In this document: in pieces, positions 28,043 to 32,869 of the stretch
Position numbering within the stretch: the stretch's first letter is position 1
Layout: the number at the start of each line of letters is the position of its first letter
NCBI GenBank assembly: GCA_030536655.1
Contig: JAUNPN010000019.1
Span: forward strand, 1-32,869
Length of the DNA: 32,869 bases
Direction: 5' to 3'
DNA from: a bacterium
GTDB taxonomy: Bacteria > Bacillota > Clostridia > UBA1381
Program-made: the position numbers and the translations under genes
The notes under the pieces: generated by a model
What the model was told of the DNA's origin: nothing
Database searches by the model: none
What the model saw: the letters and a program-made list of their open reading frames with translations, nothing else

Positions 28043-31000
28043 TTATTTTATAATTTCAACCGTATACTCATCTGAAATCCAGTTGACCTCAGCTCCAAAT
28101 GATTCGGTGATAAAGCGAAGAGGAACCATAAGCCGGGAATCTGCAATAACCGCAGGTGCGTCAAGCTTCTTTTCAGCTCCGTCAAGTTCAGCCGTTTCCG
28201 AACCAACGTTAAATACCATTACATGACCGTCCTTGGATATTGTGACCTTACTCATATCCTCCGCTGCGCTTACTTCCGCACCAAGAGCCTCCGCAAGCGC
28301 CCTTGCCGGAATCATCGTTCTGCTGCTGTCCGAAAGATATGGCGAAACATCACTGTTGAGATACTCTCCGTTTACCTTTATTTTAAGTACAGGTGCAACA
28401 TTTACCTTCAATGTCTTACTTGCCGGCAGCTGATGATACGCATCATTAGCTTCTGCGGTAAACACATATTCTCCGCCGCGTACCGGTGTGAAATGAATCA
28501 GATGACCGTCCATGAACGCTCCCTCCGGAAGCTGTGACATAGTAAATGCAACCTCATCATCATCGGCATCATTCACACTGAAATCAAGCGTAACTGTATC
28601 ACCGACCTTTATATCTGCACCGACCATTTCCGCATCAATTTCCACATTGCTTACATATGCGGTATTCATTTCCTCAGTAGCTGCCGTCATAACCAGACCT
28701 ACATACAACGCGCTTCCCCCGTTATATTCAAAGCTCGGCTTTGAAGTCTGAATATAATTTTCACCGTCAAGGCTATACCAATATTCAATCATATTTCCCC
28801 TGCGTTCGATAATAACGTCCATCGGAACCGACTTATTATTCATATCTCCCGCCCAGTGCGAGGTGGTGCTCTTTTCCTGAGTGTCGATATGGTCAACCAT
28901 CAGAATATTGTTATTATTTGAAAAGTGCCTGTATTCCACATAATTTGCTTTCTCAAAATCAAGTGCGTCCGTTATAAACGCTCCGAAGAAATCGTCCTCC
29001 GATGAGGTATTCCGGATTTTGTTCAAGCGGAAATGCATTCTGAAATCACCTGTAATTTCTTTATAAGCAAAGGTTTTCTTCAGATTTTTCTCATTCTTTA
29101 TACCCTTTGAACAAATTGCGGTTATATTTCCATTTTCATCTGTTTCAATTCCGCCTTCTACACCGGTTGGGTTAAACACCTTCCAGCCGGTATCTTCAAC
29201 AACTCGTCTTGCAGCCGTAAACTTCGGAAGAGTATTCGTTTCATATTCAAATACAACCTTATTCTCTGCGCCATCGGCAGCTGTTACCTGTTTTGTTTCA
29301 CTTTCATTTTTAACAAGACTGTATCCCTCAAATGCGGCGGCATTAAATTCCGCAGTATCACCGTTCTCAACTGTTTTTGTATCTGAGCCTAAAATCAGAT
29401 CCCCGGCTTTATACACTGCCCCGACCGTTTCTGTCGGTACTTTTTCAAGTATTTCAAGCACAACTCCTGTCTGCGGTGCAACATCAACCTTAATTCCGTT
29501 ACTGTCCTCATAAATCTTGCCGGATACCAGGTCACGCGCTTTTGTAACTCCTGTTGTATGCTCCATAGTATAGGTCTTGCCGGTCTGACCAACCGCTGCA
29601 TCCTGCTTCGACATATTCAATGCAATGATATATTTTCCATAGCTCACCTCATTCATACCATCATAGCGTGTATGAGTATACGGATTTCCCGATTCTGTCA
29701 GATGCGTCGAATCCTTCCACGTATACACATCACCCTGATGTGAGCTTCTGACATCTGCCAGACGGTCACAATCACTGTTCTTCATATGAATTCTTGTGTA
29801 ATCGTTATATGTCCAATTATCACGTCTGAAGTTAAATGTCACATAACACTTATCGTCTTTATTTTTAAAGACTACAGACTGCGCATCAGTATCAAACCAC
29901 GCAAAATCCTCATGAGCGTCCTCCATAGGAAGCGGTTCAATCTTGTTTTCTTTAATCAGCTGCTCAACATCTTCGTAATATTTCAAAATATCCTGAGAGT
30001 CTACGAGTGCTGTATAGATATGCGGACTTTTTGTTTCAAATGTATTTCTTATATCACCGGTATATCCGCGCTCGTCCTGCACATATTTCGCAAGGAACGA
30101 AAGTGCGCCTGCTGAATTAAGCTTAGTAGCGGTATACCCTGCGATAGGATATGATGTATGTACACTGAATCCGTCCTTTCTTGACGAGGCAAAGGTTTCG
30201 GCACTCAATACACGATTTCCCTTTGCATCAACGGCAGGATAATAATAATACTTCGCTGCCTCAAACGCATTGTATGCCTGATTTGCAAACAGCTTTCCTG
30301 TTTCCTCCGGCAGATAACGCGCGCTTTCCGCATAACGTTCCGTCACGCTGATTAACAGAGTTCCATAATCGCCTGCCCAGCCGCCGTGTGATGCACCGCC
30401 TTCAAGTCCGGTTCCGTTCATATCGGAGAACCACTTTTCTCCGTCTGCCATTTCTCCATACTTATACCTTACCATATTCAGATATACATCGTCCGGCTCC
30501 CGCTTATAATCGGTATCAAGCCCGCCCTGCGCTCCGTCCGTCAAAAGACCAACGATGTGATTAGCATAATATGCAAATCCGAAATCCTGATTTGCCGTTC
30601 CGGCACGATTTGTCGGCGCATAAAAATCTCCGACTCCGCGCTTTGGATTTGCCAGCCTGTCACGCAGTCTTGCAAACATATCTATGTAATATTCCCGTCT
30701 TGTTTTGTCCGCCGTACCAGTAAGCGCGCCGTCAATCTTCTCTTCCAGCTTTCTTTCATAAAGTGACTTTGTTTCCTCGTCCGCATTAAGCATATAGTCA
30801 TCAAGCTGCACAAATGACTGCATCATTGCGTCCGCACCCAAGGACATCAGCGGCCACCATTCACCTGTGCCGCGTTCTCCGCTGCCGTTCAAATCTGCTC
30901 CGAGCCATGCGTTTTTATCCGCTCCTGAGGTATGGTAGCACCAGCCGCCCTCGCTGTCCTGTGCCTTTACATAAAAATCAAGCAACCGGAAATACCTTTC

Positions 31001-32071
31001 CAGAATTTCTTCATTTCCCTTGTATTTTGAAAAATCAAAGCAGTATGCGTTTGACAAAATCATCAAATTTGACATTGTTGACCAATTCTGATGTAAAATT
31101 GCCTCCTGAGTATATCTGCGTGCAATCTCATCGCTTGTTCCGGACATATCTGCATCTGCAACAGGCTGATTTCTGATAACCGCGCCGTCCATAAATGCGC
31201 TCTCTTTCGTCTTTTTTACTTCCCACGCATCACCAAAGCACTGCCACGAAAGCACCCTGTCGGTCATTGCGTCAACCTCACCCTTGAGAAATCCATAAGC
31301 AGATACTCCATCCGCATGCTCAACCTTCTTAGGTTCCGGCACACCCGAACCGACAAACGAATCCTCCGGAACATAATACGGATTTGTCGAAATGTCAATA
31401 CTGTAAATATATTTTGAAGGCTGAGTTATATCCAAATAATCGCCTGTACCGTAGGAATCCATTTTTCCGTTAGATACAATTTTCAAATCAACCGTTCCAT
31501 TCGACTTTACGAGCTGCTGAGGAATTTTATAGGTTGCATAGTAATATCTTCCTTCAAGCGGCGGATTATCCTTATACTGTCCGCAGTCAAGCTCCGCATA
31601 TTCTCTGCCGTTCCTTGGATTGAAATACTCCGTCGAGCCGTCACCTGCCAGAAGTATCAGATTCCCTCTGTCATACTGGCTGCCGCTTAAACGTATTGTT
31701 ACATAATTCACAGCCGCAGTATCTGCCTTCAATGTAAATCTGAGAAATCCTGCTGTTTTGTCCTCCTTTGAAGCCGGAGGATTTATATAACGGTAACTCA
31801 GACCGTCACCCAATCCTCCGCCTGTGTATAATCCGTTCCGGTCCTTCGTCTGTGCCGATGCTTGTGTGTCCGTTCCTGCTGATGTGCGGCTTTCGGTCAA
31901 AGAATGTGCTGCTTCCGATTCACTGTTGCCGAATATCAATCTGTCAAGCTTATCCGACCTTTCGGATCTAGCTGACTCTTTCACATTTTCCTGTGCAGCG
32001 TACGCTGTAGGCATAACCGTTCCCGCAGCCAGCATTGAAACAACAATTACGGCGGTAATAATTCTTTTCAC
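28043..32071 (-). CDS. Secreted alpha/alpha-toroid protein, paralogue of the 8372-12166 product, with stalk domains
   Basis: Secreted protein of 1342 residues with a GTG start and an AAGGAAGG site upstream. Order: signal peptide (1-25), beta module (about 40-245), toroid-like helical region (about 255-700), beta region (about 730-890), a small beta repeat (about 895-955), a concanavalin-like domain (about 960-1145), a cadherin/Ig-like domain (about 1150-1225), and a C-terminal copper-amine-oxidase-N-terminal-like stalk (about 1226-1342, two repeats with MIPARALAEALGAEV and MVPLRFITESFGAEV). The first 890 residues match the 1264-residue protein in order and motifs. ASHGGWAGDYG (about 559-569) has a His and Tyr that could be catalytic, a loose likeness to PL8-type lyases. 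Family not recognised; a polysaccharide-degrading role is inferred from the co-operonic lyase. Confidence 0.88.
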   Translation of the reverse strand: MKRIITAVIVVSMLAAGTVMPTAYAAQENVKESARSERSDKLDRLIFGNSESEAAHSLTESRTSAGTDTQASAQTKDRNGLYTGGGLGDGLSYRYINPPASKEDKTAGFLRFTLKADTAAVNYVTIRLSGSQYDRGNLILLAGDGSTEYFNPRNGREYAELDCGQYKDNPPLEGRYYYATYKIPQQLVKSNGTVDLKIVSNGKMDSYGTGDYLDITQPSKYIYSIDISTNPYYVPEDSFVGSGVPEPKKVEHADGVSAYGFLKGEVDAMTDRVLSWQCFGDAWEVKKTKESAFMDGAVIRNQPVADADMSGTSDEIARRYTQEAILHQNWSTMSNLMILSNAYCFDFSKYKGNEEILERYFRLLDFYVKAQDSEGGWCYHTSGADKNAWLGADLNGSGERGTGEWWPLMSLGADAMMQSFVQLDDYMLNADEETKSLYERKLEEKIDGALTGTADKTRREYYIDMFARLRDRLANPKRGVGDFYAPTNRAGTANQDFGFAYYANHIVGLLTDGAQGGLDTDYKREPDDVYLNMVRYKYGEMADGEKWFSDMNGTGLEGGASHGGWAGDYGTLLISVTERYAESARYLPEETGKLFANQAYNAFEAAKYYYYPAVDAKGNRVLSAETFASSRKDGFSVHTSYPIAGYTATKLNSAGALSFLAKYVQDERGYTGDIRNTFETKSPHIYTALVDSQDILKYYEDVEQLIKENKIEPLPMEDAHEDFAWFDTDAQSVVFKNKDDKCYVTFNFRRDNWTYNDYTRIHMKNSDCDRLADVRSSHQGDVYTWKDSTHLTESGNPYTHTRYDGMNEVSYGKYIIALNMSKQDAAVGQTGKTYTMEHTTGVTKARDLVSGKIYEDSNGIKVDVAPQTGVVLEILEKVPTETVGAVYKAGDLILGSDTKTVENGDTAEFNAAAFEGYSLVKNESETKQVTAADGAENKVVFEYETNTLPKFTAARRVVEDTGWKVFNPTGVEGGIETDENGNITAICSKGIKNEKNLKKTFAYKEITGDFRMHFRLNKIRNTSSEDDFFGAFITDALDFEKANYVEYRHFSNNNNILMVDHIDTQEKSTTSHWAGDMNNKSVPMDVIIERRGNMIEYWYSLDGENYIQTSKPSFEYNGGSALYVGLVMTAATEEMNTAYVSNVEIDAEMVGADIKVGDTVTLDFSVNDADDDEVAFTMSQLPEGAFMDGHLIHFTPVRGGEYVFTAEANDAYHQLPASKTLKVNVAPVLKIKVNGEYLNSDVSPYLSDSSRTMIPARALAEALGAEVSAAEDMSKVTISKDGHVMVFNVGSETAELDGAEKKLDAPAVIADSRLMVPLRFITESFGAEVNWISDEYTVEIIK

Positions 32072-32127: not shown

Positions 32128-32160
32128 CAAGCATTTAATACAATAATTTATTCCATATAC

Positions 32161-32197
32161 AACTTGAACCGGAGAACAGCAATCTCCGGTTCAAGTT
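32161..32197 (-). other. 15-bp hairpin in leader, copy 1
   Basis: AACTTGAACCGGAGA (32161-32175), 7-nt loop, TCTCCGGTTCAAGTT (32183-32197), perfect pairing. No T run on either strand, so it is not a standard terminator. Its sequence differs from the copy 2 hairpin but pairing is kept. Confidence 0.7.
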
Positions 32198-32290
32198 ATA
32201 TTGTAAAAGAGGTTTTTTATAACTAAATCTTTAGGGAGAGAGAATTATGAGATTTAACGATATTTTTTGTCAATGCCTCTTTATACTTTT

Positions 32291-32319
32291 AGTATAGCAT
32301 TTAATTCCTTTATCGTCAA
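32291..32319 (-). promoter_or_regulatory. Promoter of the toroid/lyase operon (module copy 1)
   Basis: Minus strand TTGACG (32314-32319), 17 bp, TATACT (32291-32296) with TGC before it. The -35, TGC and -10 are kept in copy 2 while the spacer has diverged, which supports function. Inferred start near 32284. Confidence 0.75.
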
Positions 32320-32339
32320 CTTAAAATCACATCAGTTTT

Positions 32340-32356
32340 ATTGTATTTTTTACAAT
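32340..32356. promoter_or_regulatory. Operator-like palindrome, copy 1
   Basis: ATTGTA-N5-TACAAT, within a longer TTTTATTGTA/TACAATAAAA palindrome. Its centre is 29 bp upstream of the -35 box, about 64 bp from the inferred start. Copy 2 has the same palindrome at the same spacing. Confidence 0.55.
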
Positions 32357-32504
32357 AAAACTTTTTTCATAACATATCGGATATCAAAAACCATAAAAAA
32401 TCCAAATAAGTATAATTTTAAACTTATAATCCGAACTCCTTTCGCCAATGCGTTTGGGAAAAGAGAAGCAGCGAGTAATAATTTTAATGGTTTCTTTCAT
32501 ATAA

Positions 32505-32548
32505 ATAAGTTCAAGCCGAAGAATGATTGGTCTTCGGCTTGAACTTAT
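32505..32548 (-). other. 18-bp hairpin in leader, copy 2
   Basis: ATAAGTTCAAGCCGAAGA (32505-32522), 8-nt loop, TCTTCGGCTTGAACTTAT (32531-32548), perfect pairing. Several stem positions differ from copy 1 with matching changes on the other arm. Confidence 0.7.
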
Positions 32549-32597
32549 ATTAACAAAAGAGGTTTCTTATAACTAAAATCTTTAGGGAGAGAGAATT

Positions 32598-32750
32598 ATG
32601 AGATTTAACGATATTTTTTGTCAATGCCTCTTTCTGACTATTAGTATAGCACTTTATCTCTGTATTATCAACTTAAAATCATATCAATTTTATTGTAATT
32701 CTTACAATTATACTTTTTGTAACAAGTCAAAGTTCAGCTTACAAAAATAG
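32598..32750 (+). CDS. Doubtful small open frame within module copy 2 (50 residues)
   Basis: Begins MRFNDIFCQCLF with GGGAG 8 nt before the ATG, ends in TAG at 32750, and is followed by a hairpin at 32767-32794. In copy 1 the same start (32247) reaches a stop after 16 codons because of a one-base indel. The strongest conservation is at nucleotide level and fits a minus-strand promoter and leader better, so I think it is probably not a gene. Confidence 0.2.
   Translation: MRFNDIFCQCLFLTISIALYLCIINLKSYQFYCNSYNYTFCNKSKFSLQK
32643..32671 (-). promoter_or_regulatory. Promoter in module copy 2
   Basis: Minus strand TTGATA (32666-32671), 17 bp, TATACT (32643-32648) with TGC before it. Same geometry as copy 1. 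Confidence 0.65.
32692..32708. promoter_or_regulatory. Operator-like palindrome, copy 2
   Basis: ATTGTA-N5-TACAAT, centred 29 bp upstream of the copy 2 -35 box, exactly as in copy 1. The bases just outside the half sites differ between the copies, while the half sites do not. Confidence 0.55.
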
Positions 32751-32766
32751 AACAGGGTAATCATTC

Positions 32767-32794
32767 AGGATTTTATAAATCGCCATAAAATCCT
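32767..32794 (+). terminator. Possible terminator near the right edge
   Basis: AGGATTTTAT (32767-32776), 8-nt loop, ATAAAATCCT (32785-32794), perfect 10-bp stem followed by AATTTTT on the plus strand. No confirmed plus-strand gene precedes it. Confidence 0.4.
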
Positions 32795-32869
32795 AATTTT
32801 TCGGCATAAAAAGTCTTAAGGAACCACTGATTAATTAACACCTAACGGCTTAGCACGCATTGAACTTGC

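Follow-up and report, generated by a model that had tools for sequence, protein, structure and literature searches.

The csRNAs of the CiaR regulon in Streptococcus are several near-identical small RNAs (sRNAs), each with its own regulator-bound promoter and terminator, in which stem-loops enclose a conserved stretch complementary to the Shine-Dalgarno sequence and AUG (PMC3091779). In Bacteroides thetaiotaomicron, the paralogous FopS sRNAs bind to the translation starts of glycan-utilization and transporter mRNAs and repress them (PMC11697453). The LhrC1-5 sRNAs of Listeria are multicopy and LisRK-dependent (PMC4132741). The zor-orz locus is a duplicated type I locus in which an antisense RNA accompanies a small hydrophobic ORF, and 15 nt of continuous pairing is sufficient for the interaction (PMC3919570).

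Here, we describe a duplicated module in a gut-type, poorly known Clostridia genome of 3.49 Mb (GTDB lineage Bacillota; Clostridia; UBA1381; assembly GCA_030536655.1). The window, meaning the whole stretch of DNA that was analysed, comprises the 32,869 nt at positions 1 to 32,869 of contig JAUNPN010000019.1. Both modules occupy the minus strand close to the contig's right-hand end, at ~32158-32362 (copy 1) and ~32503-32714 (copy 2), and adjoin a plant-fibre-degradation operon. The explanation that we favour, with a probability of just over one half, is that the modules represent a tandem pair of genes for trans-acting sibling sRNAs, driven from an operator, that would block the translation starts of their targets. 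In the proposed mechanism, a putative dimeric regulator would bind ATTGTA-N5-TACAAT, centred near -64, most likely as the activator of an extended -10 promoter (P1). The predicted transcript from P1 is ~130-135 nt in length and consists of a domain closed by a stem and, after it, a terminator-like hairpin. Through the stretch AAAUCUCAUAAUUCUCUCUCCCUAAAG, this RNA would anneal to the start regions of its target mRNAs and so prevent their translation, the candidate targets being a PL11 rhamnogalacturonan lyase together with a secreted protein of GDSL type. The features of the locus are listed in Table 1.

Table 1. Features of the two modules and of the adjoining DNA, by position in the window
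Feature	Position	Strand	Basis or remark
Copy 2 operator, ATTGTAAGAATTACAAT	32692..32708	-	Exact match
Copy 1 operator, ATTGTAAAAAATACAAT	32340..32356	-	Match to ATTGTA-N5-TACAAT
Copy 2 promoter P1, TTGATA-17-TATACT, TG extension	32643..32671	-	10/12 match
Copy 1 promoter P1, TTGACG-17-TATACT, TG extension	32291..32319	-	10/12 match
Copy 2 leader (putative sRNA body)	32555..32633	-	Closed by AAAGAGG (32627-32633) and CCTCTTT (32556-32562); fold
Copy 1 leader (putative sRNA body)	32205..32282	-	Closed by AAAGAGG (32276-32282) and CCTCTTT (32206-32212)
Copy 2 putative anti-ribosome-binding-site element, AAATCTCATAATTCTCTCTCCCTAAAG	32580..32606	-	Complement scores as ribosome-binding site, top 1.0% of ATGs
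Copy 1 putative anti-ribosome-binding-site element	32229..32255	-	Predicted start-region pairing
Copy 2 possible internal promoter P2, TTGACA-18-CATAAT	32595..32624	-	11/12 match
Copy 1 possible internal promoter P2, TTGACA-18-CATAAT	32244..32273	-	11/12 match
Copy 2 terminal hairpin	32505..32548	-	18 bp, perfect; weak U-tract
Copy 1 terminal hairpin	32161..32197	-	15 bp, perfect; weak U-tract
First gene of the downstream operon	28043..32071	-	1342 aa; signal-peptide-like start; Cu_amine_oxidN1 domain
ORF of 50 aa, MRFNDIFCQCLFLTISIALYLCIINL...	32598..32750	+	Antisense to copy 2; no homologue
ORF of 16 aa, MRFNDIFCQCLFILLV	32247..32297	+	Antisense to copy 1; frame departs from copy 2 past codon 12
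Hairpin and AATTTTT, terminator-like	32767..32801	+	Behind the 50 aa ORF

A preliminary description of this DNA had reported a duplicated module of fixed order and spacing, and both direct reading and a repeat search of the two copies bore this out. The repeat search returned identities of 83% over 82 nt, 100% over 58 nt and 96% over 23 nt, at an inter-copy distance of 350-352 nt. In both copies, the operator is followed by the promoter, a 78-79 nt leader and a perfect hairpin. The operator, the 29 nt between its centre and the edge of the -35 box (32348 to 32319 in copy 1, 32700 to 32671 in copy 2), the -35 box itself, the 17 nt spacer and TGC-TATACT were all found as described. The modules are two homologous intergenic units, each with a predicted promoter and a hairpin, as is expected of sibling sRNA genes, with the strength of the terminators uncertain. 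The operator motif is present at only three sites in the 3.49 Mb genome, two of which are the modules; the third lies within the coding sequence of a pectinesterase gene, and was put down to chance. The leader occurs twice in the same 3.49 Mb. Between the modules, at 32416-32470, is a dispersed intergenic repeat (also seen in stretches L002-L020) of which the genome has ~50 copies; the unit is ~67 bp, an imperfect palindrome around AAACTTATAATCCGAACTCCTTTCACCAATGCGTTTGGGAAAAGAGAAGC, and some sites hold between one and three of these units in tandem. The contig end (32816-32869) is a second dispersed repeat, CTTAAGGAACCACTGATTAATTAACACCTAACGGCTTAGCACGCATTGAACTTG, with at least 39 further copies (stretches L092-L100). 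Several other contigs start or finish in this second repeat, so the assembly breaks there.

Differences between the two modules are unevenly distributed. The leader core differs at 2 of 79 columns, the -10 box at 0/6 and the operator at 2/17 (both in N5), compared with 5/17 columns of the promoter spacer and 20/39 of the hairpin. The longest identical run, in the alignment used, was 55 columns (P ~0.003 with the differences permuted). The leader had been called almost invariant, and the spacer and hairpin had been said to vary whilst the boxes and the pairing are kept; these figures agree with both statements. The near exclusivity of the operator to the modules, and a body that is nearly invariant while the spacer and hairpin diverge, support the interpretation of the modules as an sRNA pair. 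The claim of compensatory stem changes held in part. In hairpins aligned by pairing, by hand, 6 of the 15 homologous pairs were changed on both sides and none was broken, but three of these changes amount to the replacement of CTTGAAC by GTTCAAG, in place, in one arm, and so may reflect one template-switch event and not several selected ones. A single template switch would explain those hairpin changes as well as repeated compensation does.

The hairpins themselves, one perfect stem in each copy as previously noted, folded far more stably than shuffled sequences (z about -8 to -9.6). The U-tracts of both are weak, and consensus terminator calling identified no terminator. Long perfect hairpins (arms of at least 12 bp) were found at 52 intergenic positions in 783 kb of the genome, 32 of them no more than 120 nt from the 3' end of a gene, and many of the long perfect gene-end hairpins of this genome have poor U-tails. 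The module hairpins match this class of long, mostly U-poor hairpins. Several of the intergenic hairpins (stretches L104-L143, 783 kb) have a TGCTGCAAAAC...GTTTTGCAGCA core in common, which suggests a recurrent terminator or repeat family. The fold energy of the leader was unremarkable (z -1.2): the AAAGAGG and CCTCTTT arms that were proposed to close it are present, but the stem alone is not significant.

The preliminary description had allowed for either a cis-regulatory RNA or a small RNA, and the second possibility is the better supported. Copy 1 does precede the operon, as stated, ending 86 nt before the start codon of its first gene, while no gene lies behind copy 2. A structured 5' leader would make copy 1 the UTR of the operon, with its hairpin acting as an attenuator or stabilizer, and copy 2 a spare duplicate or second promoter. 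We consider this rather unlikely. The short distance to the start codon, a hairpin that lacks a strong U-tract, and the absence of a strong promoter call between hairpin and gene are all in keeping with a leader; the weak U-tract of copy 1 makes read-through into the operon possible, a point against the sRNA pair. However, the leader of copy 2 is equally well conserved though it stands before no gene, and Rfam gave no match. Furthermore, orthologues of the first gene of the operon (55-68% identity) had no such module upstream in the relatives examined, where they sit behind other coding genes or unrelated sequence. When the downstream protein was used as bait, one GTDB contig was recovered (54% identity), and it lacked the module. 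Because copy 2 has no gene to lead and the orthologues in the relatives examined have no module, independent RNA units are favoured over a leader.

The complementarity of the leader to translation start regions is the property that would connect the sibling sRNAs to their targets. Read as its complement, the invariant stretch AAAUCUCAUAAUUCUCUCUCCCUAAAG gives a good Shine-Dalgarno sequence or ribosome-binding site together with an AUG. The target search covered 783 kb of the genome (22%), containing 516 called start regions. The leader was predicted to pair with starts better than with windows of coding sequence by 1.9 kcal/mol, a difference that 0/60 shuffles reached. For the 27 nt core, the start of the PL11 rhamnogalacturonan lyase gene ranked first of the 516 start regions (-24.2 kcal/mol), with a predicted duplex of 16 continuous pairs across the Shine-Dalgarno sequence and AUG. 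Third of the 516 (-22.2 kcal/mol) was the GDSL-type gene, whose product is large and secreted and matches the GDSL hydrolases weakly, below the Pfam cut-off. Exact complementarity over 13 nt was also seen at a third start region, that of an ABC permease of binding-protein type, identified by a generic domain only. Genome-wide, and outside the modules, the 13-mer GAGAGAATTATGA occurs only at the PL11 and GDSL-type start sites and in one coding sequence, and widening the anti-ribosome-binding-site query to a 19-mer with up to three mismatches yielded no further start site. In a random baseline, a small sample, 0/10 genes had a polysaccharide-degradation domain. The putative sRNA body includes a CAUAAUUCUCUCUC stretch that would face the PL11 and GDSL-type start regions in the proposed pairing. 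A point against the sRNA pair is that no more than about half of the anti-ribosome-binding-site stretch is free of pairing in the predicted fold (means of 0.62 and 0.48). The tie to glycan genes that had been proposed is only suggested, by where the modules lie and by which start codons are predicted to pair best. When real ribosome-binding sites were used as queries, they had a mean of 0.49 13-mers in common with others, and 15/516 reached at least three; real start sites, as queries, behave much as this stretch does, so complementarity alone cannot separate an sRNA from a start site on the plus strand.

Such a start site is central to an interpretation in the style of type I toxin-antitoxin systems, in which the plus strand would encode a small hydrophobic peptide and the minus-strand RNA would be its antisense antitoxin. 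The plus-strand ATG lies behind AGGGAGAGAG, and its score places it within the best 1.0% of ATGs overall and at the 72nd percentile among called starts. The ORF opposite copy 2 (50 aa) has a hydrophobic stretch and a terminator-like hairpin behind it, the start site would be covered by the minus-strand RNA, and zor-orz provides a precedent for duplication of a type I locus. Set against this, the copy 1 ORF is merely 16 aa because a 1 nt indel shifts the frame past codon 12, and so the conserved small hydrophobic ORF opposite the RNA that marks type I systems is lost in that copy. Moreover, of the 12 codons that changed among the 27 comparable ones, 10 did so nonsynonymously, and codon position 1 took most of the changes. 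The peptide matched nothing in Pfam or NCBIfam and had no homologue in 391 genomes of the class, in phages, in plasmids or in viral contigs. The preliminary description had named conservation of the plus-strand frame, in place of the pairing, as the result that would count against its proposal; in the comparison of the two copies (n=2), the indel and the lack of synonymous bias indicate that the conserved feature is something other than the plus frame. Given the broken frame, the nonsynonymous changes and the lack of a homologue, we regard a type I pair as possible but disfavoured. A possible minus-strand peptide that would initiate at a leader TTG, with a length of 24 aa in copy 2 and less in copy 1, was also considered, and was rejected on its poor ribosome-binding score and lack of a family match.

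The invariant block also contains, on the same strand, a possible second promoter (P2) that was absent from the earlier account. It is improbable that P2 explains the invariance of the block, with tandem promoters and an ~80 nt RNA that would begin near CUCUCCCUAAAG and carry the anti-Shine-Dalgarno sequence at its 5' end. P2 is identical in both copies and is a better promoter match than P1, but the invariance runs well beyond it to the closing arms, and it is P1 that has the TG extension and stands at a fixed distance from the operator. Very improbable is a recent local duplication without RNA function, homogenized by gene conversion and with ordinary bidirectional terminators as hairpins, which would suit a sequence with two copies only, nothing conserved beyond this genome and long perfect hairpins common in it, but would not lead us to expect differences that are concentrated in the spacer and hairpin and spare the operator half-sites, -10 box and leader, or hairpins that are both still perfect despite six changed pairs.

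The covariance-model search of related genomes that had been proposed gave no support for an RNA family: across 70 genomes of the family, covariance model R1 detected no module beyond the two copies. R1 also produced a 38-bit match at 32459-32550 (+), overlapping the copy 2 hairpin; because its hairpin columns are out of register, R1 chiefly models the leader. A DNA search of genomes of the family and order gave no homologue, only weak short matches, of which the 13 looked at more closely, from this genome and its family, proved to be -35-like TTGACAAAAA strings, gene starts or coding sequence. The leader was not found in phages and plasmids; exact 20-22-mers retrieved nothing from viral contigs or from GTDB contigs, the latter queried with one 20-mer. 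No Rfam match reached the gathering threshold, and the best weak matches were chance. The class-level search (391 genomes) concerned the peptide only, and this genome alone represents its genus among the genomes compared. In the absence of a homologue beyond the two copies, all comparative evidence, covariation included, has n=2. In one relative, the first 30 nt of a small ORF, MTKNNLKSHNLSQEKGGGHVEPQNKHHNIKKQALGPNIKRGK (L044:1501-1530, +), are 87% identical to leader DNA. This ORF had no Pfam or NCBIfam match, and the likeness of the leader to its start (ATGACAAAAAATAATCTGAAATCTCATAATT) is probably due to chance.

The sibling sRNA pair is at present a well-formed candidate from a single genome. 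Provided that it is both transcribed and functional, the pair would link sRNA control to pectin degradation in a fibre-degrading lineage of Clostridia. We tentatively put forward a more specific proposal, which we consider doubtful: that a lineage-specific, operator-run sRNA pair beside a rhamnogalacturonan-type operon silences pectin-degrading enzymes encoded elsewhere, as an independent Bacillota counterpart of FopS. If true, this would suggest that the ranking of plant glycans at the RNA level arose independently in Bacteroidota and Bacillota.

The design of the modules is known from other bacteria, although this particular pair is without known relatives, and we place it, as an unproven member, amongst the sibling sRNAs. 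Like zor-orz, the locus is duplicated and has a small hydrophobic ORF opposite the RNA; unlike zor-orz, the frame of its peptide is broken between the copies and the peptide has no homologue. The LhrC sRNAs of Listeria have C/U-rich loops aimed at Shine-Dalgarno sequences. They are likewise multicopy sRNAs of a Gram-positive host, but are controlled by LisR, and neither a sequence match to the modules nor any Rfam match was obtained. The streptococcal csRNAs are alike in having a regulated promoter, a short RNA, a stem-enclosed stretch complementary to the Shine-Dalgarno sequence and AUG, and sibling copies. They belong to another lineage, we found no sequence homology between them and the modules, and their operator is the direct repeat TTTAAG-N5-TTTAAG, which is not present upstream of the modules, whereas the operator described here is an inverted repeat. 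FopS likewise comprises paralogous sRNAs aimed at the start regions of glycan genes, which in the present case are predicted targets; it has 14 members and the protein partner RbpB and belongs to another phylum, whereas the present locus consists of two copies known from their sequence. Our analysis is consistent with a pair of sRNA genes that resemble the csRNAs of Streptococcus and FopS of Bacteroides by design, and not by descent.
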